Shown here piece by piece: positions 26,862 through 42,838 of a stretch of DNA of 64,000 bases (its first letter is position 1; every line of letters starts with the position of its first letter). The notes beneath the pieces are model-generated. The model had not been told where the DNA came from and made no database searches. It worked only from the letters and a program-made list of their open reading frames with translations. The stretch is from Segatella copri. Lineage in GTDB: Bacteria > Bacteroidota > Bacteroidia > Bacteroidales > Bacteroidaceae. Where the stretch lies: positions 124,001 through 188,000 of the forward strand of contig NZ_CP156892.1 in the NCBI RefSeq assembly GCF_019249795.2, written 5' to 3'. A program made the position numbers and the translations under genes.

Positions 26862-27680
26862 ATGAAAAAGATGAAAAGCCTACTGCTCATGGCACTTGCG
26901 TTGCTCCCTGCGAGCAAAACTTTAGCACAGACCAACGCCCAAGTTTTCTACGACTTCGGCAGTGACCGCAAGTTTGTTACCCTCACACTCGAAATGTTCA
27001 AGCAGGACAAATGGGGTAACACCTATTTCTTTGTAGACCACGACTTCAATTACGACAAGATGGACACCAACAGTCCAAACGTGGCACAGGGTGGAACCTA
27101 TACTGAGATTTCACGTGCATTGAACTTCTGGCAGAACAGCCCAATGAAGAACTGGAGCCTCCACGTAGAGTATAATGGTGGTATTACCAAGAACTACCCT
27201 ATCAACAATGCCTGGCTCTTCGGTGTGGAGTATTTCATGCACGACAAGAGTTTCAAGAACACCTTGACACTCCAGGCACTCTACAAGACTATCCGCAAGA
27301 CCGACCAGAACGTGCCAATGCAGTTTACTGCTGTTTGGGGATGCAAAGACATCTTTGGATTAAAGGGATTGAACTTTAGCGGTTTCGCAGATTTCTGGTG
27401 GGAGAATCACGTAAGTATGCTTGACAAGCACGGAAACGTGAAAGAATTCCTCAAAGACAATGACGGCAACCTCATCAAGGACAATGACGGCAATCTCATA
27501 GCCAAAACCACTGCTGAGCACACCGTCTTCACTACAGAGCCACAGCTCTGGTACAATGTAGGTCAGCACTTCGGCTGCGAGAACCTAAGCGTAGGTAGCG
27601 AGGTAGAAATCAGCCACAACTTCGGCAGCAATGCCGGCTGGATGGTTCGCCCTTGCCTCGGTGTAAAGTGGGACTTCTAA
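26862..27680 (+). CDS. DUF5020 outer-membrane Tsx-like channel
   Basis: 272 residues from ATG 26862 (MKKMKSLLLMALALL signal peptide, cleavage near LAQ). The frame upstream to 26823 overlaps the glyA terminator. The mature chain is rich in alternating beta strands and ends in an aromatic (VKWDF), as in outer-membrane barrels. The sequence matches DUF5020, related to nucleoside channel Tsx; the substrate is unproven. A 24-bp in-frame tandem duplication (27456-27503) repeats DNDGNLIK in what is probably a surface loop. Confidence 0.75.
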   Translation: MKKMKSLLLMALALLPASKTLAQTNAQVFYDFGSDRKFVTLTLEMFKQDKWGNTYFFVDHDFNYDKMDTNSPNVAQGGTYTEISRALNFWQNSPMKNWSLHVEYNGGITKNYPINNAWLFGVEYFMHDKSFKNTLTLQALYKTIRKTDQNVPMQFTAVWGCKDIFGLKGLNFSGFADFWWENHVSMLDKHGNVKEFLKDNDGNLIKDNDGNLIAKTTAEHTVFTTEPQLWYNVGQHFGCENLSVGSEVEISHNFGSNAGWMVRPCLGVKWDF

Positions 27681-27781: not shown

Positions 27782-28648
27782 TTACTTTCTTACAGTCAAT
27801 CCGCCATCAGAAACTCCTCCGATTCCGCCTTTTTTCTTATTGTACTGACGGGTTACACCGCTCAAGTTAACTCCGCCAACACCATCGGATGTAGCGTTTA
27901 CACTTTGGCAGTCAACCTTGGCTTTCACGCTGCCCACACCTTCGTTCTTGATAATCAGACTGCCGCCCTTAAACATTCCCAGACTAACAGAGCCTACGCC
28001 CTCATTATCCAGTTTCACACTTCCCATCTCAATCTTAGAGATTTTCACCGAGCCTACGCCTTCGTTATCAATGTTCATATCATCTCCAGCCACATCATCG
28101 ATATTTACCGAGCCAACACCCTCGTTGGTTATCTCCAGTTTGTTGGAAAGAATCTTCCCAATCTTGACAGCACCTACACCCTCGTTATCGATTTCCAGTC
28201 TGTCACTATTAATCGTCTTGGCACGGAAAGAACCCACACCTTCTCTCGTAATCTTCACCAGGTCAGGACTTGTGATATAAATCTTCAGTCTCTTATTATC
28301 ACCGTTACATGAAGAAGGCACGTTCAGTCTTCCGTTCAATCCTATCTTCACTTCTCCATCCCGGTATACCACCTTGAGTTTCTCCTTCAGTTTCTTTACA
28401 AACTCCTGGTCCTTGATGGCAGAGTAATCCATCTTCACGCTGCATTCATTGCCGTCGTTCTGAGTATAATAAACATCGGCAATCACATCCACGTCGATCG
28501 CCTTAAAAGGCTTCTCGGTCAAATCATCCTGCGTAAAGTTTAGACTTCCCTTCATTTCACTGGCAGAAGATCCCATACTGCAAGAACTCAAGCCCATTGG
28601 GGCAAAGAACAAAGCGGCAGTTACCGCCAAAATACCAAATTTCTTCAT
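27782..28648 (-). CDS. head-GIN (DUF2807) lipoprotein with regular EGVGSV repeats
   Basis: 288 residues from ATG 28648 (MKKFGILAVTAALFF; ATG 28654 is possible). The lipobox LSSC near residue 23 predicts lipid anchoring. The domain is a beta-helix of about 20-residue rungs, each carrying a near-identical EGVGSV turn (at least six copies: IDNEGVGAV, ITNEGVGSV, IDNEGVGSV, LDNEGVGSV, IKNEGVGSV, TSDGVGGV). DUF2807 proteins are cell-surface or periplasmic adhesin-like proteins of unclear role. The longer frame to 28819 antisense-overlaps the next gene and is rejected. Confidence 0.82.
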   Translation of the reverse strand: MKKFGILAVTAALFFAPMGLSSCSMGSSASEMKGSLNFTQDDLTEKPFKAIDVDVIADVYYTQNDGNECSVKMDYSAIKDQEFVKKLKEKLKVVYRDGEVKIGLNGRLNVPSSCNGDNKRLKIYITSPDLVKITREGVGSFRAKTINSDRLEIDNEGVGAVKIGKILSNKLEITNEGVGSVNIDDVAGDDMNIDNEGVGSVKISKIEMGSVKLDNEGVGSVSLGMFKGGSLIIKNEGVGSVKAKVDCQSVNATSDGVGGVNLSGVTRQYNKKKGGIGGVSDGGLTVRK

Positions 28649-28714
28649 ATTCATATCTAATTTTATGTTTCTAAATACGTGATAAACCGAATACCGTTCT
28701 GTTTCGGAAATCTG

Positions 28715-30180: not shown

Positions 30181-30188
30181 TAAATTTG
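30181..30188 (+). promoter_or_regulatory. -7 promoter box for the exopolysaccharide cluster
   Basis: TAAATTTG, 160 nt upstream of the first lipoprotein; no good -33 box. It predicts a leader of about 150 nt that contains the 20-bp tandem repeat. Confidence 0.5.
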
Positions 30189-30348: not shown

Positions 30349-32778
30349 ATGAAAGTATTCAATTCTACACTTGCTGCTATCGGTTTGGCAGCATTCGTAT
30401 TCGCATCATGTAGCGACAGCACAAGTGATCCTACTGGTGGCGATGGTGTAAAGTCAGAGGTTAATTCAGTTGAACTTACAGCTTTAACCCCAAGTTCTGT
30501 AATCAATTACAAGAACAGCACAGCTATGGCTCGTAAGTTCTTCGCTACAAGAGGAGCTTCAGCTACAGACTTCGTGACTGCAATGCCAAATTTCCCAACA
30601 AAACCACAGTTGATTAAAGAGCTTACCAAAGCAACAGACTTGGTTTTTGATGAGGGCAATCCAACAAACACTTACATTATCAAGAACAAGAACAAGCTTG
30701 ACTTTACTGACCACAAGATTCAGGGTGTAACCATCTTCGTTAGTGGAGACAGCAAGATGACTTACAATGAGTCTCTCGGTGGAAACACTATCGTATTGGC
30801 TAAGGGCGCTACCCTTGAATATACAGGAACTGGCTCTATGATTAAGGCTACCGATAAGGTATATGGCGCAGCCAGCAGTGCTATCAAGGCTACCAACGAC
30901 AATATCGTTGTAGAAGGTGAACTCTATGCTGCATGGGAAGGTCAGGGCGAAGAGAATATTCTCCATGGCGGCTTCGGCGCTGTAGAATCAAAGGTTAACC
31001 CTACCCAGAATATCACTTTCAAGAGTGGCGCTAAGGCTTTCATCGACGGTTCAATCCGTGCTAAGAACCTTACCATTGAGGATGGCGCTGTAGTTACAGC
31101 TACAAGAAACATCCTGAATGCAACAAAGGTTGACCTTGCCGGTGCATTGAAGGTGGGTGGCTTCTGCAAGTCAGAGAACCTCAATATCACAGGTCTTTTG
31201 GATGCATCTAACGCAAATTCAGTAGTTAAGGTTACTAAGCAGCTCAACCTGGAGGATGGTTCTCTCATCAAGGCTAACTACGTAAACGTAACCGACAACA
31301 CATACGAAGGCACAAAGAATGGCAAGGATGTAGTTAATGTGGGTGATGCCCAGCTTAACTTGAAGGAGGGCGGTCAGATTCAGATTGCAGACCTCGGCGT
31401 TGTCAACGTGAACAACCTCGTTACAGACAACGCTTCTGCTGCTCAGATTCAGTTGCAGGGCGATAATGCCGTAGCCGTCATCAAGGCAGATAACTTCACC
31501 AACAATGGTGATGCTACCATCAACGCATTCGCTACTCCTGGTACAAATTCTGTACTCTTGTTACAGATGAGCAAGTGCTTCATGGGTACTACACAAATGC
31601 CTTCTTCTGGCGACCTTGACATCTCTGCATCATACCTCGACTACGACAAGGCAACAAGTGGTCAACTTGTCATTAGAAAGGATGAGACCAAAGAGCAGTA
31701 TGGTTATACCTTGAGCGAAGAGGCAAAGAACGCCAGTGCTACCCCTAAGCTAGACTTGGTTGCTTCATTCGGTGAAAACAATGGTATGTCTGCATCTTGC
31801 ATCCAGACCGTTGGCAACTACGTATATGTATCTTACCATACCTATGGCAACGGCAAAACAAACCTGAAGGGTGGTCTTGAAGTTCTCCACATGGCAGACA
31901 ACAAGCTTACAGGTGACCAGATAGTTAACGGAAAAGCAGGAATGGACATCAACCACGTAATGGTTGACAACAACAAGGCATACATCGCTGCTACCGATAT
32001 CAACAAGGGTGCATTCCTCGGCGTTGTTCCTTTGGAGAACAATGTTTATTCAACAACGATGACCCAGTATGTTCTCGATGCATTGAACAAGAAAAACGGT
32101 TTCGATGCTAACTGCGTAGTGAAGTATGGCGACAACATCGTTATGTCTTCTACAAGAGGTTACGAGTTCTACGACAAGGAATTCGGTCATACCTATTTCC
32201 AGACTACAGCAGACGCCAAGGGTCTTGCTTCAGCTAACGGCAACCTCTATAGCTTGCTGGCTACTGGTAAGAACACGACAGGTACTGTGAATGTATTCAA
32301 TGGTATTGACCTCCGTCAGGATAAAACTACAACATCATTCACAACTGATGGCAACGTAGGTCCTGAGAAAGGCAAGAACACTGTTGCTGTTGACGGAACA
32401 GACATCTATGTTTGTCAAGGCGAGAGAGGTATTGTTCGCTACAATGCCAACGGAGAGAAGGTTTGGGATTACACGGTTCCTACCATCGCAAACCAGAAGA
32501 GCGAGAAGTATGGTAGCGTAAAGGGTTACTGCAATGGCGTAGCTATCAGTGGCAACTACGTATATGTAGCAGCTGGCGGTTATGGCGTAGTTGTTCTTAA
32601 CAAGGCTGATGGTAAGGAGGTTTGCCATCGCACCGCATTCAACGGCTTCCTGGAGAACGGCAAGTGGGCAAACCCTAACTCTGCAAACTATGTAACAATT
32701 GGTCAGGACGGCTATATCTACGTAGCTTATGGTAAGAGCCGCGTACAGGTATTCAAGTTGACCCAGACAAAGAAATAA
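30349..32778 (+). CDS. beta-helix/beta-propeller lipoprotein A of the exopolysaccharide cluster
   Basis: 809 residues. The lipoprotein signal ends FASC (Cys 21) and is followed by SDSTSD, an acidic stretch resembling Bacteroidota surface-export signals. Residues about 100-450 are short repeated strands (NITFKSGAKAFIDGSI, NLTIEDGAVVTA, VDLAGALKVGG) as in a right-handed beta-helix. Residues about 465-809 contain repeated blades (NYVYVSYHTYGNG, DIYVCQGERGIVRY, NYVYVAAGGYGVVVL, YIYVAYGKSRVQVF) as in PQQ/WD-like beta-propellers. There is no recognised enzyme motif. As first gene of the cluster with a paralogue behind it, it may bind, modify or anchor the polymer; this is inference. Confidence 0.75.
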   Translation: MKVFNSTLAAIGLAAFVFASCSDSTSDPTGGDGVKSEVNSVELTALTPSSVINYKNSTAMARKFFATRGASATDFVTAMPNFPTKPQLIKELTKATDLVFDEGNPTNTYIIKNKNKLDFTDHKIQGVTIFVSGDSKMTYNESLGGNTIVLAKGATLEYTGTGSMIKATDKVYGAASSAIKATNDNIVVEGELYAAWEGQGEENILHGGFGAVESKVNPTQNITFKSGAKAFIDGSIRAKNLTIEDGAVVTATRNILNATKVDLAGALKVGGFCKSENLNITGLLDASNANSVVKVTKQLNLEDGSLIKANYVNVTDNTYEGTKNGKDVVNVGDAQLNLKEGGQIQIADLGVVNVNNLVTDNASAAQIQLQGDNAVAVIKADNFTNNGDATINAFATPGTNSVLLLQMSKCFMGTTQMPSSGDLDISASYLDYDKATSGQLVIRKDETKEQYGYTLSEEAKNASATPKLDLVASFGENNGMSASCIQTVGNYVYVSYHTYGNGKTNLKGGLEVLHMADNKLTGDQIVNGKAGMDINHVMVDNNKAYIAATDINKGAFLGVVPLENNVYSTTMTQYVLDALNKKNGFDANCVVKYGDNIVMSSTRGYEFYDKEFGHTYFQTTADAKGLASANGNLYSLLATGKNTTGTVNVFNGIDLRQDKTTTSFTTDGNVGPEKGKNTVAVDGTDIYVCQGERGIVRYNANGEKVWDYTVPTIANQKSEKYGSVKGYCNGVAISGNYVYVAAGGYGVVVLNKADGKEVCHRTAFNGFLENGKWANPNSANYVTIGQDGYIYVAYGKSRVQVFKLTQTKK

Positions 32779-32795
32779 TCAATTCTTAAAAGAAT

Positions 32796-32836
32796 GTTCT
32801 CTCACTACCATCCCAATGGGGTTCTAGTGGGAGAAC
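32796..32836 (+). other. intercistronic hairpin
   Basis: gttctctcacta / tagtgggagaac, a 12-bp stem with one wobble between the two lipoprotein genes, without a T-run. Probably an mRNA processing or stability element. Confidence 0.5.
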
Positions 32837-32918
32837 AAACTTCTAAAATTGGAAAGACCGCTCGAAAAGAAAGTATAACGTTAAGGATGTAGACTAACGA
32901 TTTAACAAACAAACTGAT

Positions 32919-35396
32919 ATGAAAAAAAGAAATATCAAATTGGTAACATTCGGTTTCGCTGCAATGCTCCTGGCATCTTGTAGCGACTCTAATGATACCC
33001 TTAATCCAACTCCGAATCCTGCAGAAACAGGAATCATAGGAAAGGAAGTAACCTCTATTACAGATGCTCAGCAGTTGGCTGCACGTGTCTATAACTTCAA
33101 AAGACCAAGCACAACAAGAGCGGCAGGAGTAACATCTGCCAATTTAAACCAGGCATATACCATGGAGGCAGAACCAACAGGATTGGACTTTGCAAGCATG
33201 GACAAGATGTCCAACCACGATACATGGAACTTTCCTGCAAACAAAGATATGTATATTGCTCCAGGCGAAACCATCGCTTCCAAAAACTACCATCTTAATG
33301 GAAATAAAATATACGTAGCAGGAACTTATGAATACAACCCAGATCATACAGATGGAAACTACACCATCGTAGTATTAAAAGATGGAACACTGAAATGGAA
33401 AGGTGGATACCTTTTTCCTCATCAGAACGGCGGAAAAATCCTCTGCTACGGAAACTTCGAATGCAATGCAGACCTGGATGTTCAAAACAGAGGTATCTTC
33501 AAAATTGCAGGCGATTTAAACTTAAAAGGACATACATTCAGAGTGAACAATGCCAGTGTTTATATCGGAGGCAAGCTCATTTGCAACAACTTCGAGAACC
33601 AGGCTAACGCTTATACAAATATACAAGGCGGCATCGAGGGCGTAGAAGACCAAACTATCAAAGTAGATGGTGTCGTAAACATTGATGGAAACTGCAAGAT
33701 GAAAGACCTGTACCTGATGGGAAATGGTCAACTCTATTGCTGTTCCCTGGAACTGACAGGCGAATTCAAGTCTATGGGCGGTGATGGCGCAAGCAGTGCT
33801 TTACATACCAGCTACCTGAAGGCAAAGAATCTTTTGCTTGCTTCCAGCAACAACATCTATCTGGTGAACAACAGCAGCATAGAAGTAGAAGGAACCCTTC
33901 AGTGCAACAAGAATGCCAGTGCCATGATCTTCCTGCAGGGTGTCAACTCTAAAGCTTATATCAAGGCAAATGTCATCAAATATAATGGTAGCGGAAGCCC
34001 TGCCTCACTGAACGACTGCTATATGTTCAACGCTATGGATACCGGTGGCGAATACTACATAGATGCAGATCGTTTCGACAACAGTTCTTCTAATGGTGGT
34101 AACCTCGCTTTCAGCGACGTCCAGTTCCTGGGATCTGGTAAAGCCCACAACTTCAGAAACAACAGTGCACCTGTTAAACTGGAAAAGGCAGAATGTGGCT
34201 ACACGCTGAAACCAGACGTTCCTACTCCACCACATATTGATGAGGTGGGTGAAGTTCTCTACGACCATACCCATACAGACATCACTGCTACCTGTATCCA
34301 GCCATACAACGGAAAGCTCTATATGTCATACCACACTCGTGGAAACGGACATGGCGGATGTATCGAGGTATTCGAGACAGACAACCAGAAGCAGACCCAA
34401 CTCTTGCAGTTCTTGCAGGATAAAGATAAATCGCTGGATTTCAACCATCTGATGGTAGATGGCAAATCATCTACTCCAAACCTGTATGTTGTAGGCAACT
34501 ACGGATATACAAACAAGGATACTGGCAAGCAGAGTGATGCAGGAGCCATGATGGCAAGAATCGACCTCAAGAGCAACGGGCTGCTGAATACTGAGGTTAA
34601 GAATATCGGTGATGCAGCCATCAATCCGCTGATTATCGTTCCTCTGGAGAACAACCAGAGCAACAATGAGGATGAGAATGCAATCGTTCGCGACGGTGAC
34701 AAACTGCTCGTAACAAGTACCAGAGGTTATGAGGTTTACGACCCTAACACCCTGGAACTGCTGAGCAGCAAGAAGACTCCGGGTAAGGCGAAGCACATCG
34801 CACTGAACAATGGCGAGATTGCTACCTTATATTACAATGAACGATTATCAAGCACAGAAACTCCTGTAGCCGGAACACTGGAGATTTTCAACGCTGGTGC
34901 AGACATTACAACTGCAACACCAGAGAAATCAATCGCCATTTCAGAAATTGCACCAAACAATGGTAAGAACACCATAGCCATCGACGGAGACAACGTCTAT
35001 GTATGCCGAAGCGCAAACGGTCTTACCTGTTACGACAAGAATACCGGTGCAGAGAAGTGGACATGGCAAGCTCCGCTTACCGCATCCACATCCAAGCCTC
35101 AGGGCTATGCCAACGGTGTGACATTCGACGACAAGTATGTCTATCTGGCTTGCGGAGGTTACGGTCTCGTGGTTCTCGACAAGAACAAGATGGTGGATGG
35201 CAAACCAGCAGTTTACGCCAAGACCCGAGTTACTGGTATTACCAACGAACAGGGAAGAATAGTTTGGAACTCTGCCAACTACGTAACACTCTATAATGGA
35301 CTGATTTACGTAGCTTACGGTAAGAACCGACTCAAGGTTTACCAATTGGTTGATGGTAGCACATCTGGATCAAATACAGACTATGGCACCAAATAG
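32919..35396 (+). CDS. beta-helix/beta-propeller lipoprotein B (paralogue)
   Basis: 825 residues, same layout as lipoprotein A: lipobox LASC (Cys 21), acidic SDSND tail, a beta-helix region (about 130-430, e.g. GIFKIAGDLNLKGHTFRV) and a C-terminal propeller (about 440-815). The blades echo the first protein almost word for word (GKLYMSYHTRGNG, LLVTSTRGYEVYD, NVYVCRSANGLTCYD, YVYLACGGYGLVVLD, LIYVAYGKNRLKVYQL). The helix halves have diverged more than the propellers. A tandem duplication kept in a secretion cluster suggests both copies have a role, perhaps as a heteromeric surface complex. Confidence 0.75.
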   Translation: MKKRNIKLVTFGFAAMLLASCSDSNDTLNPTPNPAETGIIGKEVTSITDAQQLAARVYNFKRPSTTRAAGVTSANLNQAYTMEAEPTGLDFASMDKMSNHDTWNFPANKDMYIAPGETIASKNYHLNGNKIYVAGTYEYNPDHTDGNYTIVVLKDGTLKWKGGYLFPHQNGGKILCYGNFECNADLDVQNRGIFKIAGDLNLKGHTFRVNNASVYIGGKLICNNFENQANAYTNIQGGIEGVEDQTIKVDGVVNIDGNCKMKDLYLMGNGQLYCCSLELTGEFKSMGGDGASSALHTSYLKAKNLLLASSNNIYLVNNSSIEVEGTLQCNKNASAMIFLQGVNSKAYIKANVIKYNGSGSPASLNDCYMFNAMDTGGEYYIDADRFDNSSSNGGNLAFSDVQFLGSGKAHNFRNNSAPVKLEKAECGYTLKPDVPTPPHIDEVGEVLYDHTHTDITATCIQPYNGKLYMSYHTRGNGHGGCIEVFETDNQKQTQLLQFLQDKDKSLDFNHLMVDGKSSTPNLYVVGNYGYTNKDTGKQSDAGAMMARIDLKSNGLLNTEVKNIGDAAINPLIIVPLENNQSNNEDENAIVRDGDKLLVTSTRGYEVYDPNTLELLSSKKTPGKAKHIALNNGEIATLYYNERLSSTETPVAGTLEIFNAGADITTATPEKSIAISEIAPNNGKNTIAIDGDNVYVCRSANGLTCYDKNTGAEKWTWQAPLTASTSKPQGYANGVTFDDKYVYLACGGYGLVVLDKNKMVDGKPAVYAKTRVTGITNEQGRIVWNSANYVTLYNGLIYVAYGKNRLKVYQLVDGSTSGSNTDYGTK

Positions 35397-35440
35397 CAAG
35401 ATAAGAAATACTAGAGAATAAAAAACTCAAGAAGACACCA

Positions 35441-35478
35441 GATGAATGCAGCTGCAACAGCTCGCAGCTGCATTCATC
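35441..35478 (+). other. intercistronic hairpin before the export genes
   Basis: gatgaatgcagctgc / gcagctgcattcatc, a 15-bp perfect stem with an 8-nt loop and only a weak T tail. It may separate expression of the lipoproteins from the export genes by partial termination or processing. Confidence 0.6.
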
Positions 35479-35495
35479 GTGTTTAATAACTCATT

Positions 35496-36899
35496 ATGAA
35501 GCGAAAAATAATACTATACTCAACTACAGCTCTGCTACTTCTCATGGCAGCACAAAGCGCTACGGCTCAGACGAAAGGCAAAAAGCCGAAAAGTTTCAGC
35601 CCTAAGATGCTCGTATATGAGAATCTGAAGAACGATAATGTACTGAGACACTTTAAACAGCGCTTCGCACAACTCGACACTCTCATCAAAAACCCTATTT
35701 GGGTGAAAGCACCAGTCATAGAACTGGGACTCAATAATCAGCATCACGCTGATATCAACAAGACCGACTCTCTGTTCTGGTCGAAAACTGCACATGAGCA
35801 CCTAGCGCTCAACAGACACAACGGTCTGGAAGTGACCGGACAGGTTTATGCCCGACCTGACTCGTACTTCGATTCTGATGAAGACGATGCAAAAGAGGTA
35901 TCAAAATATAAGATGAAGGTTCAAGCCGAACTGGGTTGGAACATCATCAACTCGAAGTTCTACCAAGGCAAGGAGAAAAGAACAAAGATTGCTCTTGCCA
36001 ATGAACTCGACCGCTTGCAAATAAAAAAGCGCCAAACTGCAGACATCTATGAAAAGGCAGCCGATGAGCTGACCGAACAATATAATTTCTATATCGGTAC
36101 TGTCATAGCACACAGACTGGACAACCTCGACATCATGAACGAAGCGTACCAGTTTATGCTGGAAAAAGACCGAATCAGCAACGACAAGATGCTGAAAGTG
36201 ATGAACGATAAGCTGGAGGCTGAATATGACATCTCCGTGCTCTGCACAGACAGAGATATCAGCAACAAGCCTATCTACCGCATCAAACCAACCAAGATTG
36301 TGGTAGACACAACAGCCCTCTGGAACCATCTGAACCAGGAAAGTCTGGATGCACGCATCATGATGGTGAAAGAACAGATTGCTGACAACGACAGCAAGCT
36401 GACCAACTATTTAAGCACTACCCGACTCACACCATTCGCAAGATGGTCGAGCTACTGGCAGAGCAACAACAAGATTTCGAACAATGCCGACGTGGGCGTG
36501 AGATTCACCATTCCTATCTGGAACGAAACGCCACGCAAACGACAGGCACTGGAGACCCAGAAGGAAATCATACGCAGCAGCCGCGGTACCGATGTGAAGG
36601 AAATAAAACAGTCGGTAGGCATCCTGCTCAAGAAGATAGACAACCTGAACAAGGCTATAGCCACCGAGGCTTTCCATATAGACCAGACCGGCAAATATAT
36701 CGAAATGCGGCGGTTTGCCTACCAGAACCAGAAGCAGGGATACAACTATCTGATGCGTATGGACGAATATACGGGACTCCTGGAAAGTATGGAGCGCATG
36801 TACAAACTGATGCAGAACCGGGCCCTCGCTATCATCAATATCGAGAAAGCCGTGAGCATCTATGACAACAACAACATCTTCAAAGAAATAGAACTTTGA
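35496..36899 (+). CDS. TolC-like outer-membrane efflux protein
   Basis: 467 residues with a signal peptide (LLLLMAAQSATAQ). Long amphipathic helices (about 150-240 and 350-450) flank beta segments. VQAELGWNIIN and DVGVRFTIPIWNETPRKRQALETQ match the repeated beta-strand/hairpin of the outer-membrane factor family. Trimers of such proteins form an outer-membrane barrel with a periplasmic tunnel. The adaptor gene begins 18 nt downstream, so it is probably the outer exit of the polymer. The identification rests on fold-level pattern rather than close identity. Confidence 0.7.
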   Translation: MKRKIILYSTTALLLLMAAQSATAQTKGKKPKSFSPKMLVYENLKNDNVLRHFKQRFAQLDTLIKNPIWVKAPVIELGLNNQHHADINKTDSLFWSKTAHEHLALNRHNGLEVTGQVYARPDSYFDSDEDDAKEVSKYKMKVQAELGWNIINSKFYQGKEKRTKIALANELDRLQIKKRQTADIYEKAADELTEQYNFYIGTVIAHRLDNLDIMNEAYQFMLEKDRISNDKMLKVMNDKLEAEYDISVLCTDRDISNKPIYRIKPTKIVVDTTALWNHLNQESLDARIMMVKEQIADNDSKLTNYLSTTRLTPFARWSSYWQSNNKISNNADVGVRFTIPIWNETPRKRQALETQKEIIRSSRGTDVKEIKQSVGILLKKIDNLNKAIATEAFHIDQTGKYIEMRRFAYQNQKQGYNYLMRMDEYTGLLESMERMYKLMQNRALAIINIEKAVSIYDNNNIFKEIEL

Positions 36900-36917
36900 A
36901 TGTAAGGAAACTAGAAT

Positions 36918-38099
36918 ATGAATGAATTCCAATATAATGGCACGCCACAAGAACAGGCGATGGCAGACTTGCTGAAGACGCAGAGTCACCGCCTTGCCAG
37001 ACAGCAGATCGTCTTTGCCCTGATCTTCCTGCTGGTTATCGTGCTTGCCGCCTACTATATTGTCACTCGTATGATATGGGCAACCTTCGACGGTTATATA
37101 ACCCTTGATGAAAACCATATCAGTGCCGTTGACGACATCTATATCCTTAAGGTGAACAAAGAAATGGGTGAAGTGGTACATAAGGGAGATACGCTCTACT
37201 CTTATGTACTGCTAGGTAATATTGTGAACCAATACGACCCGAACATCCTGCCTTCAGCCGTAAAGGAGACTCACGACATGGAGGTACAGGCTAAACTCGC
37301 CCAGCAGGAGATTCCGGTGCTGCGTACCCGACTTGCCGAACTGAAAAAACAGAAAGCATCTGAAAGTTCGGACATCTACTACGGCCTTACCGACAACACC
37401 AAGCGAAATGCACTGGATGCCGAGATTGCCGAGGTAGAAGAGGAATTGAGAAAGCAGGCTAAGAAGGTGGAAATCTACGCACAGGCAAAGAACACCACCT
37501 ATAACTTCATGAGCCGCAGAGGAGCCGGCAGAGCAAATGCTGCCATGCCTTACTCCAACACAAGCATCTACAACCCGGGACTGATACACTACTGCTGTGC
37601 ACCAGCCGATGCTTACATCTCAAAAATCAATGCGAGCGACAAAACCCTGGTGTTCAAAAGCGAGGAGGTGATGGTTATCCAGCATACCGACTATGCAGAC
37701 TGCCATCTGGGAGTAATCGCATACGTACCAAACGACATGGTGAAGTATATGGAAAGCCCTGACGATGCAGACATCATCATCAACAAAGACCTGGAACTGA
37801 AGGCTAAGTTGCAGATGGTAGGTCTGAGAGTAGAGGAAATACCAAAGCATCTGCAAAGTAACTTCTCGCATGATGCCAACGCAGTGGTTGCCGTATTCAC
37901 CCTGAACCCTAACCAGAGAGTTCCGGCATGGGTAATGAGCAACAGACTGCCGGTAAGAATAAGAGTGAACAAGATTGGTGCCATGCTCGATCCGAAGCCA
38001 CTACCGATGTACACCGTCCCAGTGGGCAAGAACGAAAACGTGAAGCGAAGCAACAGGTTTTCGAGCAACACCAATAATCATCAAGAACAAAAGAAATAA
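36918..38099 (+). CDS. HlyD-like periplasmic adaptor (membrane fusion protein)
   Basis: 393 residues. One N-terminal membrane helix (about 30-52, ALIFLLVIVLAAYYIV) is followed by a half-lipoyl-like segment (VNKEMGEVVHKGDTLYSY), a coiled coil (about 120-190, KLAQQEIPVLRTRLAELKK) and a C-terminal beta-barrel-like region. This is the HlyD/Alg44-C architecture. There is no PilZ domain, unlike Alg44. Eighteen nt after the TolC-like gene and 3 nt before the zinc-ribbon gene, it should connect the inner-membrane synthase to the outer-membrane tunnel. Confidence 0.8.
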   Translation: MNEFQYNGTPQEQAMADLLKTQSHRLARQQIVFALIFLLVIVLAAYYIVTRMIWATFDGYITLDENHISAVDDIYILKVNKEMGEVVHKGDTLYSYVLLGNIVNQYDPNILPSAVKETHDMEVQAKLAQQEIPVLRTRLAELKKQKASESSDIYYGLTDNTKRNALDAEIAEVEEELRKQAKKVEIYAQAKNTTYNFMSRRGAGRANAAMPYSNTSIYNPGLIHYCCAPADAYISKINASDKTLVFKSEEVMVIQHTDYADCHLGVIAYVPNDMVKYMESPDDADIIINKDLELKAKLQMVGLRVEEIPKHLQSNFSHDANAVVAVFTLNPNQRVPAWVMSNRLPVRIRVNKIGAMLDPKPLPMYTVPVGKNENVKRSNRFSSNTNNHQEQKK

Positions 38100-38102
38100 A
38101 GA

Positions 38103-39722
38103 ATGATTGGACTTAGAAGAAACAAACGTGGAGATATGGTGCTCACCATCGATAGCTATATAGATATCGACTCGACACCGGACATCCAGCCCGACTACTT
38201 CGATTGTATTTACATCAATACGAAGAGTGAGCATGCGTTCCATGATATACTGTTTGGAGCCAGTCCAATCTTATCGTGGAAATGTAGCTACAAACCGATA
38301 TTCGTCAATACGGCGGTATCGGGAAAGGAACAGATCATCGACTATATCGTCGATGCCTATGTGAGCGACATGAACAATGAAAAGGTATACGAGATTATTG
38401 ACAGAATCAAGATGGCAAGACAGAAGTTTGGTGTAAAAAGCGAAACAAGCCATCCTACACAGCCTAACCAGCTCTTTGCCAATATTCTGAGATACCTGCT
38501 CTCAAGAGACCAACGAATCATGGGACACCGACTGCTGGAGAAATCATCTTTGGGATATATCAACCCAATCTTCGAGCACTATCACAGTATGGGTCTCTTC
38601 CATCTCAACGAGATGTTCATGTTCATCGAAACTATGGTGGAGTTCGGATCACTGCGCATTCACCGCTTCCTGCTCAAGGAGCACCTCTGCCCTAAGTGCA
38701 ACCACTCTCACCTGCTCTATACGGAGTGCTGTCCGAAGTGCGGAAGTTCGAACCTGAAGTTTCAGAACATCATCCACCACTTCAGCTGCGCCAACGTATC
38801 GCCGGAAAGCAGCTACAATGTGGGCGGTATGCTCATCTGTCCGAAGTGTCACAAGAAACTGCGCCACATCGGTGTTGACTATGACAGACCAGCCGTGGTA
38901 TATACCTGCAACGACTGCGAGAACTCGTTTACCTCGCCTATCACCAAGGCAACCTGCTGCTACTGCCAGAGCACCTTTCCGGTAAATACCCTGGTGCCAC
39001 GAGACATTGAGGACTACGAGATAACGGAAGAAGGTATCAGAACGCTGACCAGCGGCAACATCATGTTCAACAACATGGTGAACATCTATGATAACTTCAT
39101 GGAATATTATCTGCTGATGAACCGACTGCGACGCCAACTGATGGAAACCTACCGCAAGGATGAACTCTCGGTCATGGTAGGCAAGATATGGATTATAGAT
39201 GAAAACAAGGATACCGTAAAGATAAAGGAAAGCATACAGGGCAAGCTCTGTAGAATCTTCTCCAATCACAAGGTGTCTTACTACAACAATATCTTCTACG
39301 TATCCTCTACCCTCTATGAGCAGGAAGAAACGGTGGAAGAAGCCCAGCAGAAACTGAGCAAGGAGATGTCGGTAGCCATCAGAAAGGTGGCCAACTCGAT
39401 AGAACCGGACGAGATTATCTGCAGCATGCTGGAAACCAAGACGAAGACCATCGCCAACAACTATGACGAGTTCTTCAACAAACTGCAATATGTGGATATG
39501 ACTCCAGACGACTACTGCCGCTACTCAGAGGAACCTCTGATGAAGGAAGAAGAGAAATTGGTGCAGCCGCAGGAAGAGCTGCTTGATACGGAGCCGAAGA
39601 AAGATGAAAACGACAAGATACAGAAACGCATCGTGCTCTACAAGAAACTCGTTGACATCCTTGTCACCATCGCAGGTATACTCATAATCATGGCCCTCTT
39701 GGCGCTCACCGTGCTGAGATAA
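38103..39722 (+). CDS. zinc-ribbon membrane protein, TackOD1-like
   Basis: 539 residues, no signal peptide, one C-terminal membrane helix (about 515-537), so most of the chain is probably cytosolic. Residues about 200-310 hold several CxxC pairs (CPKCNHSH, CCPKCGSSN, CPKCHKKLRHIGVDYDRP, CNDCENSF, CCYCQSTF), a tandem zinc-ribbon array. HHFSCANVSPES and LRHIGVDYDRP strongly recall the TackOD1 (thaumarchaeal output domain 1) family found in some archaeal and bacterial signalling proteins. Residues about 320-500 are a charged helical region. Its place between adaptor and synthase suggests control of the synthase. The family call is from memory. Confidence 0.6.
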   Translation: MIGLRRNKRGDMVLTIDSYIDIDSTPDIQPDYFDCIYINTKSEHAFHDILFGASPILSWKCSYKPIFVNTAVSGKEQIIDYIVDAYVSDMNNEKVYEIIDRIKMARQKFGVKSETSHPTQPNQLFANILRYLLSRDQRIMGHRLLEKSSLGYINPIFEHYHSMGLFHLNEMFMFIETMVEFGSLRIHRFLLKEHLCPKCNHSHLLYTECCPKCGSSNLKFQNIIHHFSCANVSPESSYNVGGMLICPKCHKKLRHIGVDYDRPAVVYTCNDCENSFTSPITKATCCYCQSTFPVNTLVPRDIEDYEITEEGIRTLTSGNIMFNNMVNIYDNFMEYYLLMNRLRRQLMETYRKDELSVMVGKIWIIDENKDTVKIKESIQGKLCRIFSNHKVSYYNNIFYVSSTLYEQEETVEEAQQKLSKEMSVAIRKVANSIEPDEIICSMLETKTKTIANNYDEFFNKLQYVDMTPDDYCRYSEEPLMKEEEKLVQPQEELLDTEPKKDENDKIQKRIVLYKKLVDILVTIAGILIIMALLALTVLR

Positions 39723-39748
39723 GCCATCAAGAAGAAAGGGAAAAGCGT

Positions 39749-41065
39749 ATGTTTAGCATAGCAGAACATCTGAACGATTTCTTCGACTGGATCAGCACGC
39801 TATCGTTTAGCAGTATCGTGAATACCTACTGGTTCCTCTTCTTCTTCGAGATGCCAAGATATTATATCCTGGAATATCTCGTAATCGGAAACCGACTGAT
39901 GAAGAGAAACCAGATAGATAAAGAGAAAGAATATGCCAAGTACTTCCTGTACCGCGAGAATCCGCTTATCAGCATCCTCGTACCGGGAAAGAACGAAGGC
40001 AAACATATATTCAAAATGGTGAACTCGCTGGCTGAGCAAACCTACCGCAACTACGAAATCATCGTGGTAGACGATGGTAGCGACGACGACACCAAACTGA
40101 TTTGTAACGACCTCTACCGAGCCGGGTATATCACCCACTACCTGAGGTTGGATACAAGAGGCGGTAAAGCTGCCGCCAGCAACTATGGAGCCCAGATGGC
40201 AAAAGGCAAATACATCGTATGCCTGGATGCCGACTCTTCGCTCGACCGTGATGCACTGGAGAAAATCCTACTCCCCTTCTACATCGACGGAATGGTAAAG
40301 GGCGTAGGAGGATGCGTGAAGGTACGCAACTACAAGGAGACCATCTGCTCATCGCTGCAGGCTTTCGAATACCTGAAGCGAATACAGGTGGGACGTATCG
40401 TAACCAGCGAACTGGGTATCTACCACATCATTTCGGGAGCATTCGGAGCCTTCGAAAGAAAGACGCTGAAGGAAGTGGGCTATTGGGACATAGGACCGGG
40501 ACTGGACGGTGACCTGACACAGAAGATCCGCAAAGCCGGATATAAAGTGAAATTTGCCGAAGATGCCATCTGTATGACCAATGTTCCTACCAAATGGTAC
40601 AAGCTGTATCATCAGCGCATCAGATGGTCGCGCTCGCTCGTGAGATTCCGTCTCCGCAAGCATGCCGACATTCTGCTGCCTACCAAGAACTGGAGTATCC
40701 TTAACTGGTTATCCAACATGGAGAGTGTGGTTTTCGACTGCTTCCTCAATTTCCTGTGGTTGTGGTATATCATCAAGCTCGCCATCACGTTTAACACGCA
40801 CATCATCGAGGTGCTGGCGCTGGGCTACTTTATCAGAGTATGCTTCTCGCAGCTTGCCTTCCTCCTGGTGCTGATGGTTTCAGAAAGAAAGAAAGACGTG
40901 TGGTTCCTCTACAGATACCTGCCACTGATGTCGCCTTATACAGGTTATTTCCTGCGTATCGCCCGTCTGTCGGCTCATCTGCAAGAAATCTTCTTCCGCC
41001 GTTCTTACAAGGACGCATGGAACCCTGAGAAGACTTCGCGCTATGCTCAGCTTGAAGGAATCTAA
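39749..41065 (+). CDS. processive family-2 glycosyltransferase (polysaccharide synthase)
   Basis: 438 residues. An N-terminal membrane segment (about 20-45), a cytosolic GT-A domain and three or more C-terminal helices (about 325-410) give the layout of cellulose, hyaluronan and alginate synthases. Motifs: SILVPGKNEGKH, DDGSDDD (UDP/metal), CLDADSS (DxD), GPGLDGDLT in place of the usual xED acceptor motif, and QRIRW (the Q/RxxRW of processive enzymes). It would polymerise a nucleotide sugar and export the chain through the membrane. There is no PilZ domain. The dehydrogenase next door hints at a uronate substrate. Confidence 0.88.
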   Translation: MFSIAEHLNDFFDWISTLSFSSIVNTYWFLFFFEMPRYYILEYLVIGNRLMKRNQIDKEKEYAKYFLYRENPLISILVPGKNEGKHIFKMVNSLAEQTYRNYEIIVVDDGSDDDTKLICNDLYRAGYITHYLRLDTRGGKAAASNYGAQMAKGKYIVCLDADSSLDRDALEKILLPFYIDGMVKGVGGCVKVRNYKETICSSLQAFEYLKRIQVGRIVTSELGIYHIISGAFGAFERKTLKEVGYWDIGPGLDGDLTQKIRKAGYKVKFAEDAICMTNVPTKWYKLYHQRIRWSRSLVRFRLRKHADILLPTKNWSILNWLSNMESVVFDCFLNFLWLWYIIKLAITFNTHIIEVLALGYFIRVCFSQLAFLLVLMVSERKKDVWFLYRYLPLMSPYTGYFLRIARLSAHLQEIFFRRSYKDAWNPEKTSRYAQLEGI

Positions 41066-41152
41066 AAGACCCGAGTTACTTGCTGTAACGTACATACAGC
41101 AGGGAGCTCCCAATAAAAGAAATAACATTATAAAACATAAACAATATAGTAT

Positions 41153-42409
41153 ATGATAAACAAGTCTTTTGAGTTTAAGATTGGAGTAATAGGATTAGGG
41201 TATGTTGGTACTCCACTGGCATGCTTATTCTCAAAGAAATACGATACATGGGGTTATGACATCAAAGTTGAGAAGGTAGCCAAGTTAGCCAAAAGCACGA
41301 TGGAAGACAACAGACCTGTATCCAAAGCGTTGGAACAGGGACTGAAACTGACCAGCAATATTGATGACCTGAAGAAGTGTAATGTGTATATCATCGCTGT
41401 ACCGACACCGGTGAACAAATCGAACAAGCCAGACATCAGTTGCGTGCGCAATGCTACAGCTGAGGTTGGCAAGATCCTGAAAGAAGGTGATATCGTAGTC
41501 TACGAGAGTACCGTTTACCCAGGTCTGACAGAAGAGGTCTGCGCTCCATTACTGGCATCTACATCAGGATTGAAGTTGAACCAGAGTTTCTTTGTAGGCT
41601 TCTCGCCAGAGCGCATCAACCCGGGCGATACTGTTCATACCATTGAGAACATCGTGAAGGTTACCAGCGGTTCTACACCCGAAGCAGCTGCTATCATCGA
41701 CAGTCTCTATGCTTCTGTACTTACCCATGGCACCTACAGGGCGAAGAGTATCAAAATAGCAGAGGCATGTAAACTGATGGAGAACTGCCAGAGAGACATA
41801 CAGATAGCCTTCTTCAACGAGATGGAAAAGATTTTTGACAAGATGAACATCAACATCGAAGACGTAACGGCGGCAGCTAGCACAAAATGGAACTTCGTGC
41901 CAGCTACTCCAGGACTCGTTGGCGGCCACTGCATCGCGGTAGACCCATACTACCTGATTAACAAGGCACAGGAGGTTGACGTGGTACCATCGCTGCTCTC
42001 TACAGCCCGCGAGGTTAACGAGCAGATGGCGGTATGGATGGCAGGAAAGATTAAGAATGCATCTGAAAGCAGAAAGTTCAAGGCTCCGGAGACTAACGTG
42101 CTGATTCTCGGCTTCTCGTTCAAGCCAGACAGCGATGATATCAGGAACACAAAAGTAGCCGATCTCTATATCAACCTGGTAGGAGCAGGTTACAAAACCA
42201 CACTCTACGATCCATTGGTAGATGTAAAGGAAGTAAAAGAAGAATATAACATCAAGGTGACAGATGATCCTAAAGTTCTGGAAAAAGAGTATCAGATTGT
42301 GGTAATCGGTACTCATCACAAGATGTTCGACAGTATCGACATGAACAATCTAATCACTGATAAAGGATTCATATGCGACATCTACGGCATTCACAAGCCA
42401 AGAAGCTAG
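41153..42409 (+). CDS. UDP-sugar 6-dehydrogenase, UDP-HexNAc type (TviB/WbpO-like)
   Basis: 418 residues. Rossmann motif GVIGLGYVGTPLA (residues 11-23), SPERINPGD and catalytic-cysteine motif GGHCIAVDPYYL (about 257), then GFSFKPDSDDIRNTK. UDP-glucose dehydrogenases normally have GGSCFPKD around the cysteine, whereas GGHCIxVDPYYL with SPERxNPG is typical of the UDP-GlcNAc/GalNAc/ManNAc dehydrogenases of Vi antigen and O-antigen pathways. It should yield a UDP-aminouronate for the adjacent synthase. An 87-nt gap with small palindromes separates it from the synthase gene. Confidence 0.9.
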   Translation: MINKSFEFKIGVIGLGYVGTPLACLFSKKYDTWGYDIKVEKVAKLAKSTMEDNRPVSKALEQGLKLTSNIDDLKKCNVYIIAVPTPVNKSNKPDISCVRNATAEVGKILKEGDIVVYESTVYPGLTEEVCAPLLASTSGLKLNQSFFVGFSPERINPGDTVHTIENIVKVTSGSTPEAAAIIDSLYASVLTHGTYRAKSIKIAEACKLMENCQRDIQIAFFNEMEKIFDKMNINIEDVTAAASTKWNFVPATPGLVGGHCIAVDPYYLINKAQEVDVVPSLLSTAREVNEQMAVWMAGKIKNASESRKFKAPETNVLILGFSFKPDSDDIRNTKVADLYINLVGAGYKTTLYDPLVDVKEVKEEYNIKVTDDPKVLEKEYQIVVIGTHHKMFDSIDMNNLITDKGFICDIYGIHKPRS

Positions 42410-42454
42410 ATTTTCAAGATCGGAAAGAACCTACATAAAACAGACCTGTGAAAA

Positions 42455-42838
42455 ATGGAAAAGAATAAAGTACTAATCGTCGATGATATTCCAGAAAATA
42501 TTGAAACTATCTCTGAAATGATAAAAGACTTTGACATCGACGTGAAAACTGCAAATGGCGGAAAAGAAGCCATTGAACTGATTGACTCATTCAAGCCGGA
42601 CGTGATACTGCTCGACTTGATGATGCCAAATGTAAATGGGTGGGACGTAATAGACCATGTACGCTCTAAATACTCGAAAAGTGAAATGGTCATCATCGTG
42701 GTTTCCCTGTTAAGCAACAAGGATAATGTGGATGAATGCTACGAGCTTGGAGTAAACGACTACATCACAAAGCCTATCATCAAAGCCCGTCTCACCAGTT
42801 CGCTAGACGCTCATCTAAGCAGTCTTGCAAGAGGCTAA
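42455..42838 (+). CDS. stand-alone response regulator receiver
   Basis: 127 residues, a complete REC domain with nothing after it. Acidic pair at residues 10-11 (VDD), phospho-acceptor Asp in LLDLMMP (about 51), Ser in VVSLLS and Lys in TKPI (about 105). With no output domain it must act by protein contact; the zinc-ribbon protein or synthase are natural candidates. No histidine kinase lies in the window. Last gene of the cluster; its stop codon overlaps that of pflA. Confidence 0.9.
   Translation: MEKNKVLIVDDIPENIETISEMIKDFDIDVKTANGGKEAIELIDSFKPDVILLDLMMPNVNGWDVIDHVRSKYSKSEMVIIVVSLLSNKDNVDECYELGVNDYITKPIIKARLTSSLDAHLSSLARG

Follow-up and report, generated by a model that had tools for sequence, protein, structure and literature searches.

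We analysed a stretch of 64,000 nucleotides from Segatella copri (contig NZ_CP156892.1, positions 124,001 to 188,000 of the forward strand), referred to below as the window, and an eight-gene operon within it that combines a GT2 polysaccharide synthase with a HlyD-like adaptor, a TolC-like protein and a protein carrying the zinc-ribbon domain TackOD1. The eight co-directional genes and the families assigned to them in the original prediction were confirmed, with all open reading frames (ORFs) on the forward strand and intergenic gaps of 3 to 140 bases (Table 1). The gene order was identical in the closest genome compared (G001), and the TolC-like, HlyD-like, TackOD1, GT2, dehydrogenase and receiver proteins of the window were 94-99% identical to those of G001.

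Table 1. Features of the operon, in positions of the window.
Feature	Position	Strand	Evidence
Lipoprotein LP1, 809 aa	30349..32778	+	ORF; lipobox FASC-SDS; PQQ_2 25 bits and bactofilin 15 bits, both sub-cut-off
Lipoprotein LP2, 825 aa	32919..35396	+	ORF; PQQ_2 26.7 bits, sub-cut-off
TolC-type outer-membrane factor, 467 aa	35496..36899	+	
HlyD/EmrA-like periplasmic adaptor, 393 aa	36918..38099	+	Profile match to EmrA and type I adaptors; hydropathy
TackOD1 regulator, 539 aa	38103..39722	+	PF18551 152 bits; predicted model pLDDT 84.7; five CXXC motifs
TackOD1 zinc-ribbon domain, residues 124-307	38472..39023	+	PF18551; 13 cysteines within 190-310
Degenerate GGDEF-fold domain, residues 323-472	39069..39518	+	NNIFY at motif position
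Processive-type GT2 polysaccharide synthase, 438 aa	39749..41065	+	DDG 108, DAD 160, GLDGD 251, QRIRW 289
UDP-HexNAc-type 6-dehydrogenase, 418 aa	41153..42409	+	TviB model 383 bits (cut-off 592); PDB 4r16 E 6e-56
Single-domain receiver, 127 aa	42455..42838	+	PF00072 92 bits; D11, D54, K106

The GT2 protein is an inner-membrane enzyme with the DDG, DxD and QxxRW signatures, and such signatures have been described for processive glycosyltransferases (PMC8669469; this and most other papers cited here were consulted as excerpts, and what is said of them is limited to those excerpts). The QxxRW motif was retained in 21 of 21 aligned members. By sequence the protein is nearest to PgaC/IcaA and to chondroitin and hyaluronan synthases, and the NCBIfam model of PgaC/IcaA gave 162 bits while the NodC match was weaker (70.7 bits). 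A search of six synthase-holding genomes showed that the cluster copies of the GT2 score 418-1000 bits while all other GT2 matches reach at most 120. The dehydrogenase is of the TviB/ManNAc-dehydrogenase type by profile and PDB match; its score lies under the cut-off of the TviB equivalog (Table 1), so membership of that equivalog was rejected and no exact sugar is assigned.

The profile of the TolC-like protein had no match among PDB sequences, and a fold test was used in its place. The results of the structure prediction confirmed the TolC fold, as the original prediction had proposed, rather than an AlgE-type barrel; the fold matches were efflux channels. The adaptor has a single N-terminal membrane segment (24-57, by hydropathy), and the best PDB matches of its profile were EmrA and a type I adaptor, while it scored 22.8 bits against the EmrA subfamily model (cut-off 390.8). 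Profile libraries detected no ABC, MFS or RND pump among the eight proteins; the operon encodes the outer-membrane factor and the periplasmic adaptor of a tripartite efflux or type I system, but not the inner-membrane pump.

The TackOD1 protein consists of an N-domain (residues 1-119, family unknown), the zinc ribbon, the degenerate GGDEF domain and a C-terminal membrane helix (510-539). It had been described as a zinc-ribbon membrane protein, and the ribbon stood, with a PF18551 score far above the curated cut-off of 32 bits and the cysteine pattern of the family; the membrane helix, however, was found in only 3 of 26 aligned homologues, all Segatella-type, and the C-terminal GGDEF fold, which lacks the catalytic motif as in PelD and BcsE, had been overlooked. 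Profile and fold comparisons found no DNA-binding domain in this protein. An identity of the N-domain as a degenerate receiver was suggested by alignment and AlphaFold topology, but it is not claimed, since profile comparison with ten receivers gave a probability of only 0.2; a homologue of this domain is encoded by a separate gene of 109-119 aa beside a REC-TackOD1 fusion in certain members of a single family that lies outside the class of the window. The receiver residues listed in Table 1 were invariant in the aligned receivers. The receiver domain was fused to TackOD1 in L058, L062 and Roseibium, and the TackOD1 gene of Palleronia is annotated as a response regulator. In three Bacteroides metagenome-assembled genomes (L118, L120 and L125) the TackOD1 ORF is 712-740 aa long; downstream of it lies a gene with a receiver domain, which in L118 may encode a hybrid kinase. 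The describers of TackOD1 called its function obscure and reported archaeal members as response-regulator outputs, also in type IV pilus loci (PMC5847659).

The RxxD I-site is absent from the TackOD1 protein of the window, which on this point falls outside the c-di-GMP receptors of the PelD/BcsE type. RxxD was present in all three gammaproteobacterial proteins, none of seven alphaproteobacterial ones, 4 of 110 Bacteroidota locus proteins and 54 of the 120 database proteins listed out of 411; three of the 244 proteins tested, one of them from Methylocystis, lacked the anchor motif. The genomes of the relatives of the window protein are mostly devoid of GGDEF and other c-di-GMP enzymes. The predicted lack of PilZ was borne out, with no match in the eight operon proteins (adaptor included) or in 20 of 20 carrier genomes, and an alginate-like control was rejected on this ground.

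TackOD1 was found above the curated cut-off in 10 of 296 genomes across the phylum, 18 of 201 of the window's family and 18 of 247 of its class, and in none of 14 named control genomes; 12 of the 18 positive family genomes belong to one genus (g152), in which the gene occurs without the synthase. Through a pattern scan, 497 relatives were confirmed among the GTDB species genomes. The gene is patchy yet widespread. Loci were selected by TackOD1 and not by GT2: the best 80 of the 497 relatives were retained and 40 regions, a subset of the matches, were taken from the phylum, family and class searches, while four regions with sub-cut-off matches (L087-L090) were left out of the counts. ORFs were called in 116 loci and the window, and these 117 sequences, minus three without a TackOD1 ORF of at least 300 aa and eight duplicates, gave 106 loci, whose neighbouring genes were labelled by means of profiles that had been iterated (E 1e-5) on this same set of loci.

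A GT2 was flagged near TackOD1 in 77 of the 106 loci (76 after removal of L065, in which the label fell on an unrelated 279-aa ORF), and it lay directly downstream of TackOD1 in 75 loci. The adaptor was located at most three genes upstream of the TackOD1-GT2 pair in 76 of 76 synthase loci. The expectation that the synthase would stay with both the adaptor and a TolC-like gene was upheld in 71 of the 76, so that dedicated periplasmic and outer-membrane exit parts are encoded with the synthase; four of the other five loci (L070, L142, L158 and L161) start at a contig edge and the fifth (L123) has a masking ORF. A lipoprotein gene was found near 43 of 77 synthase loci and a dehydrogenase gene near 41. 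Named carriers of the core include S. copri iA622, S. paludivivens, S. albensis, Hallella mizrahii, Barnesiella sp. WM24 and Heminiphilus faecis.

The linkage also holds outside the phylum. When plasmids were searched with tblastn, TackOD1 turned up in 20 records (15 from Proteobacteria, five from haloarchaea), and the loci of 14 of the former (all but H7) and two of the latter (H16 and H18) were examined. All 14 proteobacterial records (Rhodobacteraceae M382, Photobacterium, two Aminobacter, Plesiomonas, Aeromonas caviae, Roseibium, Alisedimentitalea, three Phyllobacterium, two Methylocystis and Palleronia) showed TackOD1, then GT2, then the adaptor; the Photobacterium set was read from ORFs in an unannotated region, and the Alisedimentitalea TackOD1 is annotated as two ORFs. 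The GT2s of these records were 29-35% identical to that of the window (BLASTP E 4e-36 to 1e-77). In Aeromonas the GT2 spans the ends of the record, with 328 residues visible (E 5e-37), and the adaptor is preceded by a TolC-family gene of 694 aa. In the records other than H15, adaptors annotated as hypothetical scored 71 (Roseibium), 52 (Methylocystis H12) and 71 bits (Palleronia) on the window-family profile, and the Aeromonas adaptor scored only 18 bits. Comparison of the two groups showed that the adaptor lies before TackOD1 in Bacteroidota and after GT2 in Proteobacteria while the adjacency of TackOD1 and GT2 is constant. No annotated GT2 was found near TackOD1 in the two haloarchaeal records examined. 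The TackOD1 proteins of haloarchaeal plasmids L186 and L187 are short. The 29-kb A. caviae plasmid pKAM345_3 (L173/L188) is typed as mobilizable and consists in part of the TackOD1-GT2-TolC-HlyD set; since it is carried on such a plasmid, the module can travel.

TackOD1 and a receiver gene also occur together in loci that lack the synthase. They were same-strand neighbours, 34-172 bases apart, in 26 of 26 such loci (L064, L065, L066, L072, L091, L092, L097 and 19 others). Neither a synthase gene nor one for an adaptor or a TolC-like protein lies close to these pairs, which belong to Bacteroidales from rumen and gut, for example Candidatus Minthosoma caballi. The 26 loci comprise 25 of the 29 loci of the GT2-less class plus L065, the cut or messy L130, L149, L163 and L172 having been left out. 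The 12 g152 genomes yielded neither an operon-type adaptor (best match 39 bits, compared with 420 in G001 and 428 in G444) nor an operon-type GT2 (60 bits, compared with 1000 and 685). The constant pairing and these missing genes show that TackOD1 and the receiver form a unit of their own, which is attached to a synthase in other lineages.

Of the two lipoproteins, LP1 has a possible beta-helix-like N-terminal half and a propeller-like C-terminal half, and LP2 is a distant paralogue (27% identity). Compared with the proteins at the same positions in G001, the two were only 40% (LP1) and 50% (LP2) identical, whereas the six other proteins were nearly unchanged, which points to either fast divergence or allele exchange, as for proteins exposed at the surface. 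Their CSDS motif only partly resembles the lipoprotein export motifs SDDDD and SDDFE (PMC5080379), and a surface location is therefore inferred. One TolC-like protein of the operon family (L082:5680-8337) carries an extra YCF48/BNR-type propeller (63 bits), a fusion reminiscent of the propeller-like lipoproteins that the window encodes separately, and another TolC-like protein (L058:5641-7767) contains a sub-cut-off glycosyl hydrolase 18-like stretch (23.9 versus 29.6 bits).

Upstream of the operon, no full match was found to the Bacteroidales promoter pattern, which matched six times elsewhere in the window (1.1 expected). A candidate half-site, TAAATTTG, is readable at 30181-30188. Further upstream, a DUF2807 "head GIN" protein with a repeated NEGVGSV-like motif is encoded on the minus strand (27782-28657), adjoining a DUF5020 protein (26862-27677).

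The original prediction compared the operon with alginate, whose Alg8, Alg44 and AlgD are a GT2, a periplasmic adaptor-like partner and a nucleotide-sugar dehydrogenase, as in the operon. The absence of PilZ and of an AlgE-type exit was stated correctly there. By sequence, the synthase is nearest to PgaC/IcaA and chondroitin/hyaluronan synthases, and the dehydrogenase is of the UDP-HexNAc rather than the GDP-mannose type. Because the TackOD1 protein has a degenerate GGDEF fold in its C-terminal part, its control resembles that of alginate less than that of PelD (Pel) and BcsE (E. coli cellulose), in which such a fold serves as regulatory subunit, preceded in BcsE by a receiver-like domain (PMC8461298, PMC7439463). 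PelD and BcsE bind c-di-GMP through RxxD, however (PMC8461298, PMC7439463), and differ from the window protein, which has RxxD nowhere and a zinc ribbon between its domains.

Among other GT2 systems, the rhizobial mixed-linkage glucan system includes a membrane-fusion-like protein, BgsB. By description only, this two-gene BgsBA unit, GT2 BgsA with its partner, is similar to the operon, but BgsA is controlled by its own c-di-GMP-binding C-terminal domain, and neither TackOD1 nor TolC is mentioned in the excerpts (PMC9495663). NfrBA of E. coli, whose polymer is a phage receptor, likewise joins a GT2, a regulatory input and a dedicated outer-membrane exit, but its MshEN domain is fused to the GT2 and its exit is a TPR-barrel protein and not TolC-like (PMC8669469). 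The cyanobacterial cellulose path XcsA-XcsB-TolC also proposes a GT2, a HlyD-like adaptor and a TolC-like exit, while the excerpts name no TackOD1 and the Segatella system has all parts in one operon (PMC12430437).

We conclude that the operon probably encodes a synthase-dependent polysaccharide secretion system gated by the TackOD1 protein. This conclusion is based on gene content, conserved linkage, predicted folds and the lost GGDEF catalytic residues, and from these we infer the polymer and its sugars, direct contacts, a phosphorelay and the surface location. The inner-membrane GT2 would link nucleotide sugars, one or more of which the dehydrogenase would make acidic, into a chain that it probably also translocates. 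The synthase would stand where efflux and type I secretion systems have their pump, and the HlyD-like adaptor with a TolC-like trimer would provide the route through periplasm and outer membrane, where LP1 and LP2, probably at the surface, may retain or shape the polymer. The TackOD1 protein would be the on/off subunit of the synthase: input from the receiver, separate here and fused to TackOD1 elsewhere, would pass through the zinc-ribbon hub to the dead GGDEF-fold domain, which would act on GT2 in the manner of PelD and BcsE, though in Bacteroidota mostly with no c-di-GMP involved. A single-domain receiver that switches a polysaccharide enzyme has a direct precedent in EpsW of Myxococcus (PMC12802240).

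Several observations weigh against this conclusion. Of the 77 synthase loci, only 24 had a receiver-bearing gene nearby and only 41 a dehydrogenase, so that both are optional rather than part of a fixed core, and the profiles iterated on the same loci may recruit false members, one of which was seen (L065). TolC and HlyD families also serve other transporters within the carrier genomes, and the adaptor tree (12 efflux regions, less L213, which had no usable ORF) set the linked adaptors mostly apart from efflux adaptors but placed 2 of 11 Bacteroidota efflux adaptors among them with a support of 0.46, too weak a deep grouping to settle the matter. These two efflux adaptors, the EmrA and type I matches of the adaptor and the efflux channels matched by the TolC-like fold would fit a pump for drugs or proteins whose parts happen to be encoded next to a glycosyltransferase. 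We consider this highly improbable, given the lack of any ABC, MFS or RND gene among the eight, an adaptor score far below the EmrA cut-off, and an adaptor that accompanies TackOD1-GT2 in every synthase locus and, in a different gene order, in Proteobacteria.

The TackOD1-receiver pairs found without any synthase of the operon's family also weigh against gating, and they mean that TackOD1 can have other partners. TackOD1 could be a separate two-component output, for instance one that regulates expression or some other envelope process, recruited beside synthase genes, as the 26 lone loci, the g152 genomes, the two haloarchaeal loci without an annotated GT2 and the archaeal members, which are response-regulator outputs and are also found in type IV pilus loci (PMC5847659), would suggest. 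This is unlikely, since the TackOD1-GT2 pair stays adjacent while the adaptor changes place, the protein has no detected DNA-binding domain and the Segatella proteins bear their own membrane helix. It is improbable, too, that the GT2 product, as with NodC, is a short oligosaccharide or a glycolipid rather than a long polymer and is secreted through HlyD-TolC: TolC-type tunnels are narrow and NodC is among the matches, but PgaC/IcaA scores higher and QxxRW is conserved throughout, a weaker point because NodC may also carry the signatures of processive glycosyltransferases.

In what is close to an even call but somewhat short of it, we suggest that TackOD1 marks a separate, unrecognised class of synthase complexes in Bacteroidota, alpha- and gammaproteobacteria, in which a receiver, a zinc ribbon and a dead GGDEF domain gate a GT2 feeding HlyD-TolC; gammaproteobacterial members would still read c-di-GMP through RxxD, while Segatella, with many other Bacteroidota, would have retained the fold despite loss of the second messenger and would drive it through receiver phosphorylation alone. 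Among the titles and abstracts listed in searches of an open-access library, which lacks most subscription journals, none described this gene set, and the name TackOD1 occurs in a single paper of that library. The main text of an operon survey (PMC7112194) contains no HlyD, TolC or Bacteroidetes. A paper on EmbRS (PMC3684757) was rejected, as its excerpts concern other genes.

The presence of the core genes beside TackOD1 in distant bacterial groups gives this obscure domain a likely and testable job. By encoding synthase, adaptor and TolC-type exit together, the operon supplies the connection which the proposed XcsAB-TolC path of cyanobacteria lacks, as described in the excerpts (PMC12430437), and it would place control by a GGDEF fold in genomes mostly without c-di-GMP enzymes. 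A further prediction is that Segatella, Barnesiella and Muribaculaceae of the gut, whose surface glycans are important in contacts with host and phage, secrete a polymer.
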